Assembly: GCA_003223215.1 (NCBI GenBank)
Contig: QHYH01000089.1
Span: 62,001 to 126,000 of the forward strand
Length of the DNA stretch: 64,000 nucleotides
Direction of reading: 5' to 3'
DNA from: Acidobacteriota bacterium
GTDB taxonomy: Bacteria; Acidobacteriota; Terriglobia; Acidiferrales; UBA7541
This document shows positions 2,838 through 62,485 of the stretch, one piece after another. Numbering within the stretch: position 1 is the stretch's first letter; each line of letters opens with the position of its first letter. The notes under the pieces were generated by a model. It saw only the letters and a list, made by a program, of their open reading frames with translations, was not told where the DNA came from and searched no databases. A program made the translations under genes and the position numbers.

Positions 2838-3569
2838 ATGAAACGCGAATACCAGCGCTGGTATTCCCAGCGGCTCGGCTTGGAGCTTGGCGTCGTGGTC
2901 TACGGCCACTGGGGCGCGCCCTTGCTTGGTTTTCCGACCAGCGCCGGCGATGAATGGGAACTCGAAGGCCAGGGCATGGTGGGCGCGCTCGGCGACTTCA
3001 TCGACGGCGGCATAATCAAATTCTATGCGGTGAATTCCATCAATGGGCTCAGCTTTTACAACAAAGGCGGGCATCCGTTCCACCGCAGCTACGTGCAGGC
3101 CATGTTCGACTCTTATTTGCGCGAAGAGGTCGTGCCCTTCATCTGGAACAATTGCCAGACGCAGGGCATCGTCATCTCCACGATGGGCGCATCTTTTGGC
3201 GCGTATCATGCGGCGAATTCGCTCTTCAAACATCCCGACGTCATCAAGCGCTGCTTCGCCATGTCCGGCGTCTACGATCTGCGCAATTTCATGGACGGCA
3301 TGTACGACGACAACTTTTATTTCAACAATCCCGTCGATTACCTCGCAAACATGAGCGACCCGTGGTTTTACGAGCAGATCGCGACTTGCGACATCCACAT
3401 CTCGACCGGCACGGGTTCCTGGGAGAACAGCGGGCCCACGTATCGCCTCTCGGAGGTTCTATCCGGCAAGGGCATCCGCCACTCGCTCGACAACTGGGGC
3501 CCGCAAGGCGGGCACGACTGGCCCTACTGGAAGCACCAGATGCGCGAATATGTCGGGAGATTGTTCTGA
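2838..3569 (+). CDS. Esterase-family alpha/beta hydrolase
   Basis: A 243-residue soluble hydrolase of the esterase-D/putative esterase type. The nucleophile elbow is GASFGAY (Ser near residue 119) and the catalytic His is probably in GGHDWPYW near residue 230; the acid is likely in the intervening TGTGSWEN region. There is no signal peptide. The start has an AGAGG ribosome-binding site 7 nt upstream. Proteins of this kind are often found beside ATP-grasp and carboxylate-amine ligase genes, as here, although this one is on the opposite strand to the ligase run and separated by the AIM24 gene. It could hydrolyse an ester or amide made by that cluster; this is inference. Confidence 0.75.
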   Translation: MKREYQRWYSQRLGLELGVVVYGHWGAPLLGFPTSAGDEWELEGQGMVGALGDFIDGGIIKFYAVNSINGLSFYNKGGHPFHRSYVQAMFDSYLREEVVPFIWNNCQTQGIVISTMGASFGAYHAANSLFKHPDVIKRCFAMSGVYDLRNFMDGMYDDNFYFNNPVDYLANMSDPWFYEQIATCDIHISTGTGSWENSGPTYRLSEVLSGKGIRHSLDNWGPQGGHDWPYWKHQMREYVGRLF

Positions 3570-3605: not shown

Positions 3606-4358
3606 TCAGTCTCGGTCCAGGATGGAGCCTATAATTCCTCCAACTACCCCGCCTTGAACGGCCTTATTGGACTCGATGGGCATATACTCCATGAGCTCAT
3701 GGGCAAGCTTGGCGATCGGCAAGGTCTGCAGCCAAACACGGCCCGGACCCGTCAAGGACGCCAGAAAAATTCCGTCCCCGCCAAAAATCATGTTCTTGAT
3801 TCCCGGCACCGTGGTGATCTGGAAATTCACGCTGGTCTGGAACGCCCCGACATGCCCCGGATGGACCCGCAGCGTCTCACCCGCCTCGAGGTCTTTCACG
3901 ATCAATTCCCCGGAAAGTTCTAGCCACGCCGTTCCCTGTCCGCTCACACGTTGCAGCAGGAAACCGCTTCCGCCAAAAATCCCCGCCCCCAGTGACTGCT
4001 GGAAACCCACGCCAAGCTGGACAAGCGAGGTCGAACAGAGAAATCCGTGGCGGTGAATCATGTATTCGCGGCCGGGTCCGACTTCGACGGGCACAATATG
4101 TCCCGGAAGTTTTGCGGCAAAGGCCAGCTCGCCCGGCCTTCCCACTGCGCGGTATTCGGTCATGAAAAGCGTTGCGCCGCCCACAACGCGCTTTAATGCG
4201 CCCAACACGCCTCCCCCGCCGCCAAACTGAGTATGCGTGGTCATCTCGATCGAGCTGCCCATCCAGGAGAGCTGGCCTGCTTCGGAAATGATCGAATCAT
4301 TCGGATCCAGCGTAAACTCCAGGACCGGCATGGTCGTGCCCACAATTTGGTTCCGCAT
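3606..4358 (-). CDS. AIM24/TIGR00266-family protein
   Basis: A 250-residue protein of the AIM24 (TIGR00266) beta-sandwich family. Recognisable features are the N-terminal PVLEFTLDPNDSIISEAGQL, a glycine run near residue 50, the central GFLLQRVSGQGTAWLEL, and the C-terminal LTGPGRVWLQTLP. The family's biochemical role is not established; the yeast member is mitochondrial and affects inner-membrane organisation. The ATG at 4358 has an AAGGAG ribosome-binding site 6 nt upstream. It ends 37 nt from the convergent hydrolase and lies directly downstream of the aminopeptidase gene on the same strand, so read-through from the ligase run is possible. Confidence 0.85.
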   Translation of the reverse strand: MRNQIVGTTMPVLEFTLDPNDSIISEAGQLSWMGSSIEMTTHTQFGGGGGVLGALKRVVGGATLFMTEYRAVGRPGELAFAAKLPGHIVPVEVGPGREYMIHRHGFLCSTSLVQLGVGFQQSLGAGIFGGSGFLLQRVSGQGTAWLELSGELIVKDLEAGETLRVHPGHVGAFQTSVNFQITTVPGIKNMIFGGDGIFLASLTGPGRVWLQTLPIAKLAHELMEYMPIESNKAVQGGVVGGIIGSILDRD

Positions 4359-4444: not shown

Positions 4445-5470
4445 TTACGATAGCCCGAGGTATGCGAGCTGATAGCGGCCCTTTTCGATGACCTGCTGGT
4501 CATCGATCCAGACGTCGCACTTGCGGGTGAGCACGTCCACATGCGTCGTGGATTTCCAGTCCGCGTGAGTCTGGCTGCCGTAGGGATCGCCAAAGGCGAG
4601 ATGCACGCCGGGAAACTTTTCGTCCTGGAGCAGCACGCCGATCATTTCGGTCAATCCAAGATTCGTTCCGAAGGCCAGCTCTCCGACGCGGTCGCTGTTT
4701 TCGTCGGTGTGGCAATACTCCCAGAACTCCTGCTGCAGGTCCTTGCGCTCGCAGGCTGCGTCCACGAGCCGCCCGGCCCTGATCGCCAGCCGGAGCGGCG
4801 TAGACTGCAGGTCGCCGAATTTCCCGCAGAAGTGATCGCCCACAGTCGCATCACAGACGAACGTGCCATCCACGGTTGCCGGAGTTGTAAAAACCTCGCC
4901 TGCCGGCAGATTCGACCAGTAGCGCGGGTCGATCAGCCCGCTGGTCTTCACCCAATCGAGCCGCCGGTCAAAGTGCGCGGCAAACTCCGTGCCCGCCTCG
5001 GTTTTTACCCTCAGCGTCTCGGCGCCGAGCAAGCGTTCACGCAGCTTCTCGCTCAAGCGGTCCACCATGCGGTAGTCCGCGCGCATACCTTGCTGCATGA
5101 TCTCGGGCGTCACGCCGACCATGTGCGCGTAGCGAATCTGGCGGCGCTCGACGACTTCGACGATGGCCATGCGCGCCGCGAGTTCGCCCGGTTGCGGGGC
5201 CATGCACAAGACGCCGACATCTGCCCTCTCCAGGGCGCCCAAGACTTCCGCTGGCGCCGCCGCCATCGGCCGAGGCCCAAACTCCTCCAGCAAGAGTCGC
5301 GTCGCGCGGGCTTCGCGTTCATCGAGCGCAGCGGCCATGCTCGCGGCCACGGCGCGGCTCGTCTCATCGGCGATCAACGCGACGTTTTCGCCCGAACGCA
5401 CACCGAGGCACGTTTCCACGGCGTTGCGCGCGCCGGGCATCAGTTCCGGATCAGGAGCGCCGAAGCTCAT
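4445..5470 (-). CDS. M29-family aminopeptidase
   Basis: A 341-residue cytosolic metallo-aminopeptidase of family M29 (AmpT/AmpS type), which removes N-terminal residues from peptides using a two-metal centre. The ligand motifs expected from the Thermus enzyme are present in order: Glu in LPAGEVFTTP, Glu in VGELAFGTN, His in GVHLAFG, and the HVD pair in TTHVDVLT. The frame is open from 5515, but the ATG at 5470 gives a normal family N-terminus. It lacks a Shine-Dalgarno sequence; instead TACACT lies 7 nt before it, suggesting a leaderless mRNA. It sits downstream of two ATP-grasp genes and a carboxylate-amine ligase gene, so it may process or recycle their product. Confidence 0.88.
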   Translation of the reverse strand: MSFGAPDPELMPGARNAVETCLGVRSGENVALIADETSRAVAASMAAALDEREARATRLLLEEFGPRPMAAAPAEVLGALERADVGVLCMAPQPGELAARMAIVEVVERRQIRYAHMVGVTPEIMQQGMRADYRMVDRLSEKLRERLLGAETLRVKTEAGTEFAAHFDRRLDWVKTSGLIDPRYWSNLPAGEVFTTPATVDGTFVCDATVGDHFCGKFGDLQSTPLRLAIRAGRLVDAACERKDLQQEFWEYCHTDENSDRVGELAFGTNLGLTEMIGVLLQDEKFPGVHLAFGDPYGSQTHADWKSTTHVDVLTRKCDVWIDDQQVIEKGRYQLAYLGLS

Positions 5471-5584
5471 GCAAATTAGTGTACTTGAATCACAACGATT
5501 TTCTAACCCTGTCATTGTTCGGTGGCTTCTCTCGAACTGCCGGGAGGACGGAGCAAAGCCCGCCGATGCTTCGAACGCTCGAGG

Positions 5585-6964
5585 TCATGTTTTTGGGCTG
5601 ACGCAGAACGCGGGCACCTGCCCGCCGCCGCTCGTGACGTTGGCGAGCCCCGTTGAGCTGAGCCGCGTGAGGAACCCGCAAAGCTTTCCCCGGAACAAGT
5701 ACGGCGCAAAGTCCACCAGCATCTCGCGGTAGTCCACGCGACCCGCCGGCAGGATGTAGGGGAACACTTCGCGCCGCGTGGGAATGCGGTCTTGCACGAT
5801 CCACACGCCGTTCGTCGCGGTGAGCGCGCGCTCGATGGCTTCATCCCACCCGGCTTCGCTTGTTTCCCAGCCCAGCGTCACGCCCGAACCGCCGTATTCA
5901 TCGCTGGGCTTGAGCACGAGGTTTTCGCGGTGTTGGCGGACGAATGCCAGCAGCTCAATGGTCCGGCCGTAGTGCGCCGTCTTTACGTCCGCAACCACGC
6001 GCGTCCAGGGAATGTGCTTGCGGATCAATTCGCGCTCGCTCAGCGAGAAAAGCGCGCCGTTTTGCTCGTCGGTGAGGACCGCAAAAAAAGCCTTCACGTG
6101 CGGGATCTTGCAGCGGAAGTTGTTCGCCACGCACACCGCGCCCGCCGTGTACGCTTTGACCAGCGCAGAACATTCCCCCGGCTTGGCGACGATGTCATTG
6201 ATAAGCACGCGCCGGTAGACCAGATCGATCCGCTGGCCCTCCGCAGCCAGCGACTTCCCGTCCCATTCGAGCTGCTGTGGGTCGGCGATGAGCGTCGGTA
6301 TGCCCTTCTTTTCGAAGCGCGCCTGGAGAATCTCAAATTCACTCCACGTTGGAACTTTTTCCCAGTCCACGATGGCAATTTGCGGTTTTTGCGCGGAGCC
6401 GCCCCAATCCCGATAGCTCTCGAGCAGCGCTTCGAGCAGCTTGGCGCTCAGCGCGTAGGGCTGCACTTCGTATTTCCGGGCGAACTGACCCATCATCGGG
6501 AGTTCGTTGAAAATTTCAGCGAGCGTTTCCGCGTAACCTGGGCCGGCGGGTGATTCCGCGTTGTACTCGGCAAATTTCAGCGAATCGGGCAGCAGGAAGG
6601 CGTCCAAGCGCGAGGCCGTGCTCGCAGGGCCGTAGCCCACGTGGATGCGCGCCAAGCGTTCCTCTTCTTCGCTCAAGTGCAACTGAGCAAAGATGTGCTT
6701 GTCGCCCAAGGCCACCGTTACGACGCGTTCGCCGAGCTCGGCGATCCTCTCCGCGACCGTTCGCACCCGTTCTTCGTCTGCCGGTGAAAGAAAGACTGGC
6801 CGGAGGAAGGGACAATGAACCCGGTCACCGAAGGTCAACTTGGCCTTGCGCATGCGCCCAAACAAATCCTCGGGGAGGCCCGGCATACGCAGGAGCATGG
6901 GCTTCAGGATTTCATGCCACTCCTCGGAAGGAGGAAGAACCGAGGGTTGCGGAGCGATGGTCAC
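5585..6964 (-). CDS. ATP-grasp-type ligase, circularly permuted type (unassigned substrate)
   Basis: A 459-residue protein whose C-terminal half resembles circularly permuted ATP-grasp ligases. It shows LVLKPSDEYGGSGVTLGWE (ATP-binding lysine and glycine-rich loop, about residue 355), WIVQDRIPTRREVFPY, and the closing LANVTSGGGQVPAF. The N-terminal part (NAESPAGPGYAETLAEIFNE) matches the peptide- or amine-substrate half seen in such proteins. These enzymes join a carboxylate to an amine via an acyl-phosphate. The gene starts with GTG only 4 nt after the stop of the preceding ATP-grasp gene, so the two are translated together. The acceptor and donor are unknown. Confidence 0.7.
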   Translation of the reverse strand: MTIAPQPSVLPPSEEWHEILKPMLLRMPGLPEDLFGRMRKAKLTFGDRVHCPFLRPVFLSPADEERVRTVAERIAELGERVVTVALGDKHIFAQLHLSEEEERLARIHVGYGPASTASRLDAFLLPDSLKFAEYNAESPAGPGYAETLAEIFNELPMMGQFARKYEVQPYALSAKLLEALLESYRDWGGSAQKPQIAIVDWEKVPTWSEFEILQARFEKKGIPTLIADPQQLEWDGKSLAAEGQRIDLVYRRVLINDIVAKPGECSALVKAYTAGAVCVANNFRCKIPHVKAFFAVLTDEQNGALFSLSERELIRKHIPWTRVVADVKTAHYGRTIELLAFVRQHRENLVLKPSDEYGGSGVTLGWETSEAGWDEAIERALTATNGVWIVQDRIPTRREVFPYILPAGRVDYREMLVDFAPYLFRGKLCGFLTRLSSTGLANVTSGGGQVPAFCVSPKT

Positions 6965-6968
6965 GGCA

Positions 6969-7994
6969 CTACGAACCTTGCAGCGAACCCGAGGCCAACA
7001 CAGCGGCGGGTTTTTGCCCTGCCGTTGCGCCCTTGGGCGTCCCCGTGAATCCCGCGGCCGTCCCGATCCCCAGCATTTCTTCCCAGCGCGGCCAGGAAGA
7101 GTAGGTCTGCCCGTAGAGAGCGCGGTCGATCACCAGCCGAGCCATTTTTTCCACGACCAGCTCAAAATAGAATTCCGTGATGCGGTCGCGCTCAAAATCC
7201 GGCGCGGGATTCAGGAAGTCGATGGCATAGGGCACGCCGTCCTTCACCGCGAACTCGATGGTGTTCATTTCGTACCCGAGCGCCTGATTGATGGTTTGCG
7301 CGTCGTTCACGATGCGCACGCCCAGTTCCGAGGTTAAGTACGCGTGGTCGACCAGGTATTTGCGCTCCTTCGGGTCGTAATGGACGGGGACAATGTCAGT
7401 CTTGCCAAACGTGAAGCAGCGCACGTATTGCGTGAAATCGATGAATTCCTGCAGCGTCATGCAATACGGCGAGGTCTGGTCGTAGGCCGCCAATAACTCC
7501 TGTTTGTTGTGGACCTTATAGACGTGCTTCCATCCTCCGCCGGAAAAAGGCTTGAGAATCGCCGGCCGCCCGACATAATCGAGCAACCCATCCCAGTCGA
7601 TGGGGTATTCCAGGTTGTGGAGCGACTCCGAAGTGATGTCCACGTCGCTCGGATAGCCCTTTTGCGGGAGCAGTACCGTCTTGGGGATGGCGATTCCCAG
7701 CTTCGTCGCGACCGAATAGTTGAAATACTTGTCGTCGGCCGTCCACCAGAAGGGATTGTTGATGACGTAGGTGCCTTCGAGAACGGCGTACTTCAAAAAG
7801 CCGCGGTAATACTGGACTTCGTGCGAGATGCGGTCGACGATCACGCTGTACCTCGCCGGCTCGCCCATGCGCGTGCCGCCCAGCTTCACAAATTCCGCGG
7901 CAACGCCGTCTTTCTTGCCGAGTTCGTTCACTCGCACGATAAACGCCGGAGGAAAGCTGTATTCCCGCCCGCAGAGAAGGCCGATCTTTTTCAT
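6969..7994 (-). CDS. ATP-grasp domain protein (RimK-like fold)
   Basis: A 341-residue ATP-grasp protein. The N-terminal pre-ATP-grasp domain begins IGLLCGREYSFPPAF. The central part has NNPFWWTADDKYFN and RPAILKPFSGGGWKHVY, typical of the ATP-binding loop. The C-terminal half carries the metal/phosphate residues in GYEMNTIEFAVKDGVPYAIDFLNPAPD. After about residue 310 comes a low-complexity Ala/Gly/Thr tail of roughly 30 residues that is probably disordered. It forms the middle of an apparent operon: the YbdK-type ligase ends 47 nt upstream and the second ATP-grasp gene begins 4 nt downstream. Such proteins form amide or peptide bonds; the substrate is not identifiable. Confidence 0.75.
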   Translation of the reverse strand: MKKIGLLCGREYSFPPAFIVRVNELGKKDGVAAEFVKLGGTRMGEPARYSVIVDRISHEVQYYRGFLKYAVLEGTYVINNPFWWTADDKYFNYSVATKLGIAIPKTVLLPQKGYPSDVDITSESLHNLEYPIDWDGLLDYVGRPAILKPFSGGGWKHVYKVHNKQELLAAYDQTSPYCMTLQEFIDFTQYVRCFTFGKTDIVPVHYDPKERKYLVDHAYLTSELGVRIVNDAQTINQALGYEMNTIEFAVKDGVPYAIDFLNPAPDFERDRITEFYFELVVEKMARLVIDRALYGQTYSSWPRWEEMLGIGTAAGFTGTPKGATAGQKPAAVLASGSLQGS

Positions 7995-8041
7995 TTGCGC
8001 GCTCCTGCCAGGAAGCTGTGGTATTACCTTGCGCGATCCCG

Positions 8042-9178
8042 TTAATTCACCGCGTGCGCCGAGGAAGGGCGCGGCTCGGTCACGCCGGCGCGGGTCTCGG
8101 CAACCAGATGGCGCACGACCGCTTTCGGATCTCCTGTTTCGCGATAGACGCGCAGTTGGCGGTCCGCGCTGGTGCCTTCCTTCAGGATGGTGTGGACGTA
8201 TTCGACGGCGCTGCGGCTTCCGAGCTCATCCACCACGTCGTCCACCAGTGCCAGCAGTTCCGGAACCAACCGGCGCATGTCCACTTCTGCTTCTTTTCCG
8301 AAGTCAATCAGCTTGCCATCGACGCCGTAGCGCGCCGCGCGCCATTTATTTTCCTCGATGAGCGCCCGGCGATAGAGCCTCCAGCCCTGGTTCAATGTAT
8401 ACAGCCGGTGCAGCTTCACGATGATCGCTTGCGCCAGCGCGGCAATGGCCACCGCCTCCTCGACTTTGGTGCATACGTCGAACATCCGGAATTCCAGCGT
8501 TCCGAACATCGGGTGCGGGCGCACGTCCCACCAGATTTTCTTGCCGTTGTCGATGCAGTGCAGTTTGACCAGCAGATTCACGAAATTCTCGTAAGCGCTC
8601 CAAGACTCGAACTGCTCCGGCACGCCGGTTCGCGGGAATCGGCGGAACACCGTGGTGCGAAAAGATTTAAGTCCTGTGTTTCGGCCCATCCAGAAAGGCG
8701 AACTGGTCGAAAGCGCCAGCAGGTGCGGCAGGAAGTAGCGTACGCCGTTCATCAGGTCGATGGTGGTCTGCCGGTCCGGCATGGCCACGTGCACGTGCAT
8801 CCCGAAAATCAGCAGCGACCTCGCCAGTTGCCCCATCTCTTCGACAATGTGCTCGTAGCGCTCCCCGGGAGAGATGATCTGGTCGATCCAGCTCGAAAAC
8901 GGGTGCGTTCCGGCGGCGGCGACCTGCAGACCCGCGCGCTCCGCGGCGGCCACGAGTTCACCGCGCGTGCGGTGCATTTCGATGCGCAGATCGCTGACGC
9001 TGTCGCAAATCCGCGTCCCGGTTTCCACGATGGACTGGTGCAACTCCGGTTTGACCTGTTCCGCGATGTCCGGGGAAGCCTGCGAGATGAGCTGGCTGAC
9101 GTGCGAGCGTAACTCGCACGTGGTGGGGTCAATAATCTGAAATTCTTCCTCGACGCCTATGGTAAAGCGGTGAGCCAT
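8042..9178 (-). CDS. YbdK-type carboxylate-amine ligase (GCS2 family)
   Basis: A 378-residue protein of the glutamate-cysteine ligase type 2 family (YbdK). Family features are the N-terminal FTIGVEEEFQIID, the mid-protein GMHVHVAMPD, SSPFWMGRNTGLKS, and WWDVRPHPMFGTLEFRMFD. E. coli YbdK has only weak gamma-glutamyl-cysteine ligase activity, so the true reaction is open; the general chemistry is ATP-dependent coupling of a carboxylate to an amine. It is the first gene of the minus-strand ligase run (YbdK, ATP-grasp, ATP-grasp, M29 aminopeptidase) and is divergent from the aminotransferase at 9352, with 173 nt between them for promoters. Confidence 0.88.
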   Translation of the reverse strand: MAHRFTIGVEEEFQIIDPTTCELRSHVSQLISQASPDIAEQVKPELHQSIVETGTRICDSVSDLRIEMHRTRGELVAAAERAGLQVAAAGTHPFSSWIDQIISPGERYEHIVEEMGQLARSLLIFGMHVHVAMPDRQTTIDLMNGVRYFLPHLLALSTSSPFWMGRNTGLKSFRTTVFRRFPRTGVPEQFESWSAYENFVNLLVKLHCIDNGKKIWWDVRPHPMFGTLEFRMFDVCTKVEEAVAIAALAQAIIVKLHRLYTLNQGWRLYRRALIEENKWRAARYGVDGKLIDFGKEAEVDMRRLVPELLALVDDVVDELGSRSAVEYVHTILKEGTSADRQLRVYRETGDPKAVVRHLVAETRAGVTEPRPSSAHAVN

Positions 9179-9351
9179 GGGCTGGCACTCCGTAGTACAT
9201 GACCTTGCCAGGGACTTGGCGCTTCGTAATCATACCCCGCCGCGGTTCGCAATTGCACCCTTGGCACGTTCCCTCCTTTCCCGTGAAGAAACTCGGCGCG
9301 AGGCAATTTGGCGCTGGACGCAGGCGGGCACGCCTTGCCAGACTCTCTGCC

Positions 9352-10485
9352 ATGCAAATCCAGCCCTTTCGCATCGAACAGTATTTTGGGAAATACGAAT
9401 TCACTGCCAAATACCTGCTTTCCAGTTCTGACGCGGAGTCCCGCACCGTCCAGGAGCTGCTCGACCTCGAGCCCGGGTCGCATGAACGCCTCCTCAAGCA
9501 TTGGTGCGGGTACACCGAATCGCCGGGGGCGCCCGCGCTCCGGGAGGTCATCTCGGGAATGTATCGGGGAGTCCGGCCGGAAGACGTTCTGGTCATGGCC
9601 GCAACCGAGGAAGGCATCTTTGTTCTGTATCACGCGCTGCTTTCGCCGGGTGATCACGTGATCGTGGAAACCCCGTGTTACGAAAGTGCCCTTGAAGTCG
9701 CGCGCAGTACCGGAGCGCGAGTCAGCGAGTGGCCCCGCTCGGAGGAGAATGGCTGGGCCCATGATCTCGCTGCTCTCGAGAAACTCATCCAGCCCAACAC
9801 GAAAATCATCTACGTCAACACGCCGCACAATCCCACCGGGCTGGTGATGCCGGCAAGCGTGTTCGAGCAAGTGAGGAGCCTTGCGGCCAGCCGTGGCGTC
9901 ATCTTTTTTTGTGACGAGGTTTACCGCGAACTCGAGCACGACCCCGCGGATCGTCTTCCTGCCGCTTGCGAAGTCTACGAACGCGCCGTCAGCCTGGGTT
10001 CCATGAGCAAAACCTACGGCTTGCCCGGTCTTCGGCTCGGCTGGCTCGTTTCCAAAGACGCGGACATCCTGCGGCGCTGTCTCGAACTCAAGTACTACAC
10101 CACGATTTGCACCAGCGCTCCCAGCGAATTTCTCTCAGCGCTGGCCCTGCGCCATCGCCAAGTCCTGGTCGAGCGCAATCGCGAAATTGTCCTGCGCAAC
10201 TTGCCTCTTCTGGATTCCTTTTTCGAGCGGCGCTCGGATCTTTTCGAATGGGTCAAACCCAACGCGAGCCCGATCGGCTTCGTGCGCTACAAGCCGCAGC
10301 GCGACGTGCTTTCTTTTTGCGAGGACGTTGTAGGGAACGCGGGAGTCTTACTGTTGCCGGGAACCGTCTACGACCAGCCGCGCCACATTCGCTTTGGCTA
10401 CGGGCGCAGGAACATGCCCGAAGCACTCGCGCAATTCAGCGCCTACCTATCCGCCCATTCCGGATTTGGCGTCACTGCTCCATGA
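9352..10485 (+). CDS. Class I/II PLP-dependent aminotransferase
   Basis: A 377-residue fold-type I aminotransferase. The PLP-binding lysine is in GSMSKTYGLPGLRLGW; NTPHNPTG and FFCDEVYRELEH are the cofactor-binding Asn and Asp regions; the substrate-carboxylate Arg is likely in HIRFGYGRRN near the C-terminus. The frame is open further upstream, but the first family-like residues (MQIQPFRIEQYFGKYEF) begin at the ATG at 9352. No Shine-Dalgarno sequence precedes it. It is divergent from the ligase run and could supply or consume an amino-acid substrate for it. The amino acid specificity cannot be read from sequence. Confidence 0.85.
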   Translation: MQIQPFRIEQYFGKYEFTAKYLLSSSDAESRTVQELLDLEPGSHERLLKHWCGYTESPGAPALREVISGMYRGVRPEDVLVMAATEEGIFVLYHALLSPGDHVIVETPCYESALEVARSTGARVSEWPRSEENGWAHDLAALEKLIQPNTKIIYVNTPHNPTGLVMPASVFEQVRSLAASRGVIFFCDEVYRELEHDPADRLPAACEVYERAVSLGSMSKTYGLPGLRLGWLVSKDADILRRCLELKYYTTICTSAPSEFLSALALRHRQVLVERNREIVLRNLPLLDSFFERRSDLFEWVKPNASPIGFVRYKPQRDVLSFCEDVVGNAGVLLLPGTVYDQPRHIRFGYGRRNMPEALAQFSAYLSAHSGFGVTAP

Positions 10486-10648: not shown

Positions 10649-10945
10649 CTACGCCGCGCCCATGGCCCGCCGTTGCTGGAAGCATTCCCTGCAAAAGACC
10701 GGCCGCCCCTGGGTCGGCCGGAAGGGAACGGTGGTTTCCTTTCCGCACTGTGAGCAATTGGTCTTGGTCTCCGTGCGTGCCGGAGCGGCGTGCCCGCCGC
10801 CTTCGGCCCTTTTCGCTTTGCACGCCTTGCAGCGCTTGGGCTCGTTCTTAAATCCCTTGTCGGCAAAAAACATCTGCTCGCCGCCAGTGAACACGAACTC
10901 GGCACCGCATTCCGCACACTTCAACACCTTGTCGTGGTATTCCAT
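10649..10945 (-). CDS. Double zinc-ribbon protein
   Basis: A 98-residue protein made of two zinc ribbons. The first (residues 5-45) has CAECGAEFVFTGGEQ and KRCKACKAKR, the 'probable zinc-ribbon domain' pattern common in small bacterial proteins. The second has NCSQCGKETTVPFRP and PVFCRECF. A charged linker rich in Ala, Gly and Lys separates them. All eight cysteines are present. Function unknown; nucleic-acid or protein binding is usual for such ribbons. It stands alone between the aminotransferase and rpsU. Confidence 0.8.
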   Translation of the reverse strand: MEYHDKVLKCAECGAEFVFTGGEQMFFADKGFKNEPKRCKACKAKRAEGGGHAAPARTETKTNCSQCGKETTVPFRPTQGRPVFCRECFQQRRAMGAA

Positions 10946-61222: not shown

Positions 61223-62485
61223 CTATTCGACGATGATGCGGACGAATCGCTTTTTTCCGGCGCGAAGAATAAACTCACATGGCTTGCTAAGGTCCAGCTC
61301 CTTTCTTGGATCGTCCACCGCTAAGCCGGCAATCTCAACAGCCTTTTGCTTGACCAATCGTTCTGCCTCTGCTTTCGATTCGGCCAGTTTCAATTCGACA
61401 AGTAGCGCGGTTAGCTTTTTCGCAGATCCTGTCGGCAATTTCACTGTCGGCGCTTCTTCCGGAGCTTGACGGTCGCGAAAAACGCGCTGGAAATGTTCCG
61501 CGGCCTTGCGACCAGCTTCCTTGCCATGGAAATCGGAAATGACTTCTTCCGCAAGCCTCATTTTTGCATCCATCGGATGCAGCGTGCCGCCAGAAACTTC
61601 CTTTTCTAGTGACGCAATTTCTTTTGGCGTCCGATCGGTCAGCAGTTCGTAGTAAGACCACATGAGGTCGTCGGGAATGGACATCATCTTGCCGAACATC
61701 TCCGGCGGCGGCTCGGTAATGCCGACGTAGTTGCGGAGGCTCTTGGACATTTTGCGCTGGCCGTCTAGGCCTACGAGAATAGGCATGGTGAGGGCCACCT
61801 GCCCGGCCAGGCCGTATTCCCGCTGAATGTCGCGGTGTATCAGCAAGTTGAACTTTTGTTCCGAGGCACCAAGTTCAACATCGGACTTGAGTTCCACGGC
61901 GTCGCGCGCGGTCAGCAAGGGATAGAGCAGTTCGTGCACGGAAATCGGCTGGTTGTTTTGCAGGCGCGAGCGAAAATCCTCGCGCTCCAGCATGCGCGCC
62001 AGCCGGTAATGGGAGCAAAGCCGAACGACGTCTTCGGCGTTCATTTTGCTGAGCCATTCGCTGTTGTAGCGAACCTCGGTTTTGTTGCGATCGAGAATCT
62101 TGAATACCTGGTCGAGGTAAGTCCTCGCGTTGGCGTCCACCTCGTCGCGGGTCAGCGGTGGTCGTGTCTCCGAAACGCCGGTAGGATCGCCAATCATCGC
62201 GGAAAAATCGCCAATCAGAAAGACCGCGGTGTGGCCCAAATCCTGAAAATGCTTTAGCTTGCGCAGCACCACGGTGTGCCCCAGATGGAGGTCGGGCGCC
62301 GTGGGGTCCACGCCGAGGTAAATGCGGAGCGGCTTCCCGGCTTTGCGCGACGCTTCGAGTTTCTCAACCAACTCGGGTTCCGGGATGATTTCCGCGACGC
62401 CCTTTTTTATATCGGCGAGCTGGTCTTCCACCGGTTTGAATTTGTGTTCGCTCATTTCCACTTTTGGCTTCGCGCCTTGCGTCAT
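61223..62485 (-). CDS. tyrS: Tyrosyl-tRNA synthetase
   Basis: A 420-residue class I aminoacyl-tRNA synthetase. The HIGH-type motif is LHLGHTVVL after GVDPTAPD, the KMSKS loop is RKMSKSLRNYVG, and a C-terminal S4-like RNA-binding domain ends the protein (KLTALLVELKLAESKAEAERL, EFILRAGKKRFVRI). It charges tRNA-Tyr. This TyrZ-like form has the insert typical of the second bacterial class. The ATG at 62485 lacks a clear ribosome-binding site; an ATG 10 codons later (62455) is an alternative. purN lies 80 nt upstream on the same strand. Confidence 0.95.
   Translation of the reverse strand: MTQGAKPKVEMSEHKFKPVEDQLADIKKGVAEIIPEPELVEKLEASRKAGKPLRIYLGVDPTAPDLHLGHTVVLRKLKHFQDLGHTAVFLIGDFSAMIGDPTGVSETRPPLTRDEVDANARTYLDQVFKILDRNKTEVRYNSEWLSKMNAEDVVRLCSHYRLARMLEREDFRSRLQNNQPISVHELLYPLLTARDAVELKSDVELGASEQKFNLLIHRDIQREYGLAGQVALTMPILVGLDGQRKMSKSLRNYVGITEPPPEMFGKMMSIPDDLMWSYYELLTDRTPKEIASLEKEVSGGTLHPMDAKMRLAEEVISDFHGKEAGRKAAEHFQRVFRDRQAPEEAPTVKLPTGSAKKLTALLVELKLAESKAEAERLVKQKAVEIAGLAVDDPRKELDLSKPCEFILRAGKKRFVRIIVE

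Follow-up and report, generated by a model that had tools for sequence, protein, structure and literature searches.

Gene Content of the Locus

The DNA stretch analyzed here (64,000 nucleotides (nt), positions 62,001 to 126,000 of contig QHYH01000089.1, C14 in our numbering, in the 8.8 Mb genome G000 of an Acidobacteriota bacterium of soil type; hereafter the window) carries a run of four minus-strand open reading frames extending from 9178 to 4445 (4.7 kb), which encode the YbdK-family ligase YBDK, the RimK-fold ATP-grasp ligase RIMK, the circularly permuted ATP-grasp ligase CPG and the M29-type hydrolase M29, separated by gaps of 47, 4 and 69 nt, respectively. A first-pass annotation made from the letters of the window had described these four genes, with the two ATP-grasp genes 4 nt apart, and an aminotransferase starting divergently; coordinates and orientation were confirmed. 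The reading frame of the aminotransferase gene opens at 9199, and its residue 52 (base 9352) is aligned to position 1 of the PRK07324 profile, so that translation more probably begins at the ATG at 9349. From the comparisons described below, the unit has to be redrawn as EST, M29, CPG, RIMK and YBDK, with the convergent esterase gene EST taken in and the aminotransferase and AIM24 genes left out (Table 1).

For each of the five genes, the source genome contains one match at E ≤ 1e-20. Ratios of nonsynonymous to synonymous substitution rates (dN/dS) of 0.03–0.19, obtained with two to five relatives per gene, indicate purifying selection on all of them; one extra comparison (EST with its counterpart in locus L119) was saturated in dS. 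The nearest relatives by RIMK, among the matches listed, are metagenome-assembled genomes of Acidobacteria gp2 (91% identity) and Candidatus Acidiferrum typicum (84%). An Rfam scan and a plasmid search returned no match.

Table 1. Genes of the redrawn unit and its neighbors (window coordinates; aa, amino acids)
Feature	Position	Strand	Description
YBDK	8042..9178	-	378 aa; YbdK-family carboxylate-amine ligase (GCS2, PRK13515)
RIMK	6969..7994	-	341 aa; predicted RimK-fold ATP-grasp ligase without Pfam match
CPG	5585..6964	-	459 aa; ATP-grasp ligase (PF14403), predicted circularly permuted glutathione-synthetase fold
M29	4445..5515	-	356 aa; M29-type metallopeptidase-like hydrolase (PF02073)
EST	2838..3569	+	alpha/beta-hydrolase, PF00756 esterase family; convergent
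AIM24 gene	3606..4358	-	PF01987; between EST and M29; judged non-member
Fold-type-I pyridoxal phosphate enzyme (aminotransferase)	9349..10485	+	PF00155; divergent; judged non-member
Zinc-ribbon small protein	10649-10945		two zinc-ribbon domains PF13451, PF23477

Ligases YBDK, RIMK and CPG

By its family scores, YBDK is clearly a YbdK-family ligase (PF04107, 206 bits; PRK13515, 529.4 bits against a cut-off of 371; TIGR02050, 305.3 against 176.4). It matches the structure of E. coli YbdK (1r8g) at 7e-50, and residues E10, E11, E12, E45, E52 and E229 are invariant among 28 sequences. The GCS2 family is common to YBDK and the E. coli protein; unlike the latter, YBDK falls in the PRK13515 subgroup and is located in a cluster of ligases.

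RIMK gave no Pfam match at E 0.01 and stays below the cut-off of the RimK family TIGR00768 (39.2 against 143.4 bits). A structure model built from 43 sequences (predicted local distance difference test, pLDDT, 86) assigns it a RimK-type ATP-grasp fold, with RimK (5zct; Z 22.5, root-mean-square deviation (rmsd) 2.7, 258 residues aligned) and ArgX (3vpb; Z 22.4, rmsd 2.6, 260 residues aligned) as the nearest folds; the D-Ala-D-Ala ligases score Z 19 to 21. Residues K148, E247, D259 and N262 are invariant in 43/43 sequences. The usual metal motif of RimK enzymes is E-x-N, and RIMK carries D-x-x-N at the presumed metal site. RIMK thus shares the fold of RimK, LysX and ArgX (Z 22.5 to 21.7 for the model) and differs from them in its score under the RimK cut-off, in the D-x-x-N motif, and in that no LysW carrier was seen. 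C-terminal tails of at least 60 residues, Ala/Lys/Pro-rich by eye, occur in 11 of 75 RIMK relatives.

The third ligase, CPG, passes the gathering cut-off of PF14403 (CP_ATPgrasp_2) marginally (32.7 against 32 bits). Its structure model (27 sequences, pLDDT 93) shows the permuted ATP-grasp fold of eukaryotic-type glutathione synthetase, GspS and YgiC; the top rows of the comparison, YgiC of the YgiC/YjfC pair (Z 30.6, rmsd 3.3, 367 residues aligned), homoglutathione synthetase (Z 30.4) and GspS (Z 29.8), are tied, and are accompanied by human glutathione synthetase (chain 8fbz; Z 30.1, rmsd 3.6, 412 aligned) and, at some distance, Cp1B (Z 26.0, rmsd 3.5, 403 aligned). E133, N135, E137 and K352 are invariant in 27/27 sequences. 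With the overall fold in common (Z 30.6 to 26), the identity to these synthetases is 11–18%, and CPG lacks the amidase domain which GspS has.

Hydrolases M29 and EST

M29 matches PF02073 with 42.3 bits (cut-off 27). Its nearest solved structures by profile are the dioxygenase NicX (7cn3, E 1e-5) and the aminopeptidase-type AmpS (1zjc, E 9e-5), and residues E207, E279, H305, Y312, H325 and D327 are invariant in 21/21 sequences. E207, E279 and H305 are aligned to E, E and H of AmpS, H325 and D327 to H and D of NicX; we take these five positions to be metal ligands. A NicX-type dioxygenase was considered, NicX being the best match among solved structures, and rejected: E207 and E279 are kept as in AmpS and have no counterpart in NicX, where the alignment places other residues, and the M29 label is retained for this reason. 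The likeness to AmpS is nonetheless a distant one (356 aa as compared to 418 aa).

EST belongs to PF00756 (41.7 bits, cut-off 22), with the presumed nucleophile serine S119 and the histidine H226 invariant in 29/29 sequences. Its profile matches S-formylglutathione hydrolase (7yvt) weakly, at E 2e-4; feruloyl-type and other esterases score better. In 11 regions, L072 among them, a second esterase of ≈ 308 aa is encoded upstream of RIMK and on the other strand, with PF00756 found in the one that was scanned.

Gene Neighborhoods in Relatives

In the 16 nearest loci (L111–L126; some contigs end early), YBDK, RIMK and CPG are each present 16/16 times, M29 and EST 13/16 times each. EST follows within ≈ 230 nt after M29 in at least six of them (L119, L121, L122, L123, L125, L126; gene starts in the relatives' loci are script-bounded and approximate), and since it directly follows M29 there, the AIM24 gene, present in 3/16 close loci and rejected as a member, appears to be an insertion in the nearest clade of the window. 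The suggestion that a nearby hydrolase and the AIM24 gene may belong to the cluster held for the former and failed for the latter. The aminotransferase, at first counted as part of the unit, had to be dropped as well: it occurs in 4/16 close loci, ≈ 5.5 kb away in one of them, and four other contigs end before its place. Its best models (PRK07324, GntC, VioD) all score below their cut-offs, and no arginine-derived chemistry is claimed for it on that account. The small zinc-ribbon protein was rejected as a LysW-like carrier, given a LysW match of 17.8 bits against a cut-off of 75 and a local distribution, with the gene near the cluster in 5/80 and 0/80 loci of the two wider sets described next.

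Two wider sets were compiled. The RIMK scan comprises the best 80 of 520 relatives (593 stretches), so that its phylum spread is a lower bound; the phylum sample comprises 80 regions taken from 94 RIMK places and overlaps in part with the scan. Phyla were assigned from record titles, mostly of metagenome-assembled genomes. Within 8 kb of RIMK, the scan contains YBDK in 46, EST in 37, CPG in 31, M29 in 29, CPG2 in 10 and GAT in 3 loci, and the phylum sample YBDK in 38, EST in 34, CPG in 22, M29 in 17, CPG2 in 15 and GAT in 7 regions.

The two additional names denote recurrent neighbors. CPG2 (≈ 400 aa) follows M29 in several Acidobacteriota loci (L138, L173, L180 and others); in the RIMK scan, 10/10 CPG2 loci also have M29, EST and YBDK. 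It is linked to CPG by profile comparison (probability 62, E 8e-5), its Pfam ATP-grasp match is insignificant (E 0.27), and neither an NCBIfam match of note nor a solved-structure match was obtained. GAT, a conserved protein of ≈ 380 aa, takes the place of M29 in L120 and L124, two of the three close loci without M29. In L120, L124 and L185, where it stands beside CPG or YBDK, GAT has no Pfam or NCBIfam match, and its matches to solved structures are at chance level (the better one GMP synthase, E 0.29). By eye, from a cysteine and an HPE motif, we take it to resemble class-I glutamine amidotransferases, which the family scans did not confirm.

Co-occurrence Across Acidobacteriota

Co-occurrence was evaluated in 297 Acidobacteriota genomes, with presence defined at E ≤ 1e-20. 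Weak matches were taken out before counting (9 of 32 M29 genomes, 7 of 98 YBDK genomes), whereas nothing was removed from the RIMK, EST and CPG sets; ten of the RIMK matches are distant (E 6e-36 to 7e-30). RIMK is found in 88/297 genomes, EST in 87, and both in 84. With phylogeny ignored in all of these comparisons, EST occurs in 84/88 RIMK-positive as compared to 3/209 RIMK-negative genomes (Fisher p 7e-65), YBDK in 71/88 and 20/209, CPG in 42/88 and 10/209, and M29 in 22/88 and 1/209. In the class of the window, its own genome left out, EST is present in 19/19 sampled genomes with RIMK and in 2/13 without. EST is the tightest partner of RIMK, and the two are rarely separated. This near-obligate pairing offers a concrete handle, namely two small proteins for assay and defined groups of genomes, with and without the pair, between which metabolites can be compared.

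Arrangements in Other Phyla

Parts of the cluster reappear in altered arrangements outside Acidobacteriota. In Obscuribacterales (L160, L188) the order is EST-RIMK-CPG-YBDK, all in one direction; the Polyangiaceae locus L154 has EST-RIMK-CPG with an M28 peptidase next in line, the Armatimonadetes locus L172 has RIMK-YBDK, and the Chloroflexi loci L127, L128, L129 and L131 have EST-RIMK. An S8 subtilase whose C-terminal domain resembles CBM48 lies upstream of EST-RIMK in L128 and L129; L131 has its homologue, and L127 matched in part. A CofE-like gamma-glutamyl ligase is additionally present in L129. An S51-type peptidase stands beside a longer RIMK relative in all seven distant sister loci that were fetched (L099–L105). 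These RIMK relatives are open frames of 415–476 aa, accompanied by a 385-aa protein, and may represent a sister system. For the 13 RIMK genomes outside Acidobacteriota drawn from the best 80 loci, EST was found in 10/13 and CPG in 8/13 at E ≤ 1e-10. The variation of the peptidase family (M29, M28, S8, S51) points to amide-bond hydrolysis as a step of the pathway. GAT, standing where M29 otherwise does, would strengthen this argument if it were a hydrolase.

Proposed Pathway

The locus probably encodes a conserved amide-ligase pathway, independent of nonribosomal peptide synthetases (NRPS) and equipped with its own hydrolases, for a small pseudopeptide, perhaps of the gamma-glutamyl type. In such a pathway YBDK would link an amine or amino acid to the carboxylate of a side chain, the gamma-carboxyl of glutamate being the most likely one, CPG would extend the free carboxylate of the YBDK product by a second amine or amino acid, and RIMK would add a further residue via acyl-phosphate chemistry. 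The M29-type enzyme may cleave an amide bond, thereby trimming or recycling the product, with other peptidases replacing it in other lineages. EST, presumably acting as a serine hydrolase, is placed at the RIMK step because the two genes are rarely separated; it may act on the RIMK product or provide the RIMK substrate. The proposal draws on gene content, predicted folds, invariant residues of catalytic type, co-occurrence and synteny, from which we infer the order of the steps, glutamate as first substrate, a small-molecule product and all of the reactions. The idea of a dedicated pathway that builds and recycles such a compound goes back to the first-pass annotation; it is supported as far as the ligases and M29 are concerned, which are kept together in the close loci and co-occur across the phylum, with other peptidases elsewhere, and no longer includes the aminotransferase, which is not constant (4/16).

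A broader reading, held more tentatively, is that of a widespread multi-phylum system whose core consists of a new RimK-fold subfamily and one alpha/beta-hydrolase family, around which the other ligases and the peptidases are exchanged, and which would make a new class of metabolite. The exchanged ligases might then comprise YbdK, the permuted ATP-grasps and, in one locus, the CofE-like gamma-glutamyl ligase, an assignment of the same tentative standing.

Several observations weigh against a conserved pathway of this kind. No partner lies within 8 kb of RIMK in 25/80 loci of the scan and 19/80 regions of the phylum sample, some of these contigs being short. Scattering of the genes in relatives, named at the outset as a sign that would refute the idea, was indeed encountered in part: the genes stay together in the 16 close loci (ligases 16/16, M29 13/16), and they are dispersed, on separate contigs or far apart, in many genomes of family f22 (e.g., G173). 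EST is missing from 4/88 Acidobacteriota RIMK genomes and from 3/13 of those outside the phylum (the Myxococcales/Deltaproteobacteria records L149, L150 and L156), YBDK is found in 20 genomes without RIMK, and the co-occurrence counts are uncorrected for phylogeny. CPG and a strong M29 match coincide in only 2/297 genomes; the exact five-gene set of the window is therefore one arrangement among several. GAT, which has no family match and would be a hydrolase only by conjecture, substitutes for M29 in some loci. Finally, with D-x-x-N in place of the E-x-N of RimK enzymes, the activity of RIMK is not certain.

Alternative Explanations

It is conceivable, if unlikely, that the locus tags a protein or peptide, with RIMK adding residues to a carrier in the manner of RimK acting on S6, LysX/ArgX acting on LysW or PsnB/MdnC acting on graspetide precursors, and with the hydrolases removing or releasing the tag. 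Several of the nearest folds of RIMK (RimK, ArgX/LysX, PsnB) do act on protein or peptide carriers, and the long tails of some RIMK relatives fit such a role; D-Ala-D-Ala ligases, however, belong to the same fold class. A precursor gene would hardly fit into the short gaps of the window's cluster, the place to which this check applied (in relatives it covered genes of at least 80 aa), and the zinc-ribbon protein, the candidate carrier at hand, is sub-threshold for LysW and seldom found near the cluster.

Somewhat less probable still is a glutathione-like thiol pathway, in which YBDK would correspond to gamma-glutamylcysteine ligase, CPG to glutathione synthetase and EST to an S-acyl hydrolase such as S-formylglutathione hydrolase. 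YBDK belongs to GCS2, the best fold matches of the CPG model are YgiC/YjfC and the eukaryotic-type glutathione and homoglutathione synthetases, EST shows the weak S-formylglutathione hydrolase match, and bacterial GshB (PF02955) was not matched in the source genome, with one of 41 genomes of the class having it. On the other hand, EST is closer to feruloyl-type and other esterases, glutathione needs neither a third ligase nor a peptidase, and the bacillithiol enzyme BshC is present in the source genome and in 81/88 RIMK-positive genomes. A replacement of one thiol by another was examined along these lines and discarded, with BshC in 81/88 RIMK-positive and 119/209 RIMK-negative genomes showing no replacement pattern. 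The set is neither ordinary glutathione synthesis nor an evident bacillithiol replacement; its product may be another thiol or an amide of the gamma-glutamyl type.

A chance grouping of unrelated housekeeping enzymes, for which the dispersal of the genes in part of the phylum and the RIMK loci without a nearby partner speak, is very improbable in view of the clustering across phyla, the distribution of EST with RIMK and the single match of each of the five genes in its own genome.

Precedents and Significance

The proposed NRPS-independent amide-ligase pathway has precedents in kind. ATP-grasp and COOH-NH2 ligases have been described as operonically linked in multiple instances, often acting in succession (PMC4431377, in a passage citing Iyer et al. 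2009), and the amidoligase operons treated in that passage combine several amide ligases of different superfamilies, expected to work one after the other on distinct moieties, as does the window set. The general kind of ligase operon having been noted there, the window set is not a wholly new kind. For the fold of CPG, precedents of chemistry are homoglutathione synthetase, the peptide-spermidine ligases YgiC/YjfC and Cp1B of E-64 biosynthesis (PMC12568646). The E-64 pathway, with Cp1B and an amide bond synthetase, likewise forms amides stepwise and independently of NRPS, and Cp1B belongs to the same fold class as CPG; it differs in being fungal, in its epoxysuccinate warhead and in a second ligase of the ANL family, and no RimK-like ligase, YbdK or M29 is named in the sections consulted. 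Within the accessible portions of the open-licence literature (including PMC8939145, PMC4431377 and PMC2824669) the present gene combination was not met, and it may have been published elsewhere; among work on permuted ATP-grasps, PMC8050072, in the part available, treats another operon.

With the corrected gene list, experiments would take in EST and omit both the aminotransferase and AIM24. If the proposal is true, a compound of possibly novel identity would be made by a set of enzymes whose core ligase is present in 88 of the 297 Acidobacteriota genomes, with relatives in other phyla.

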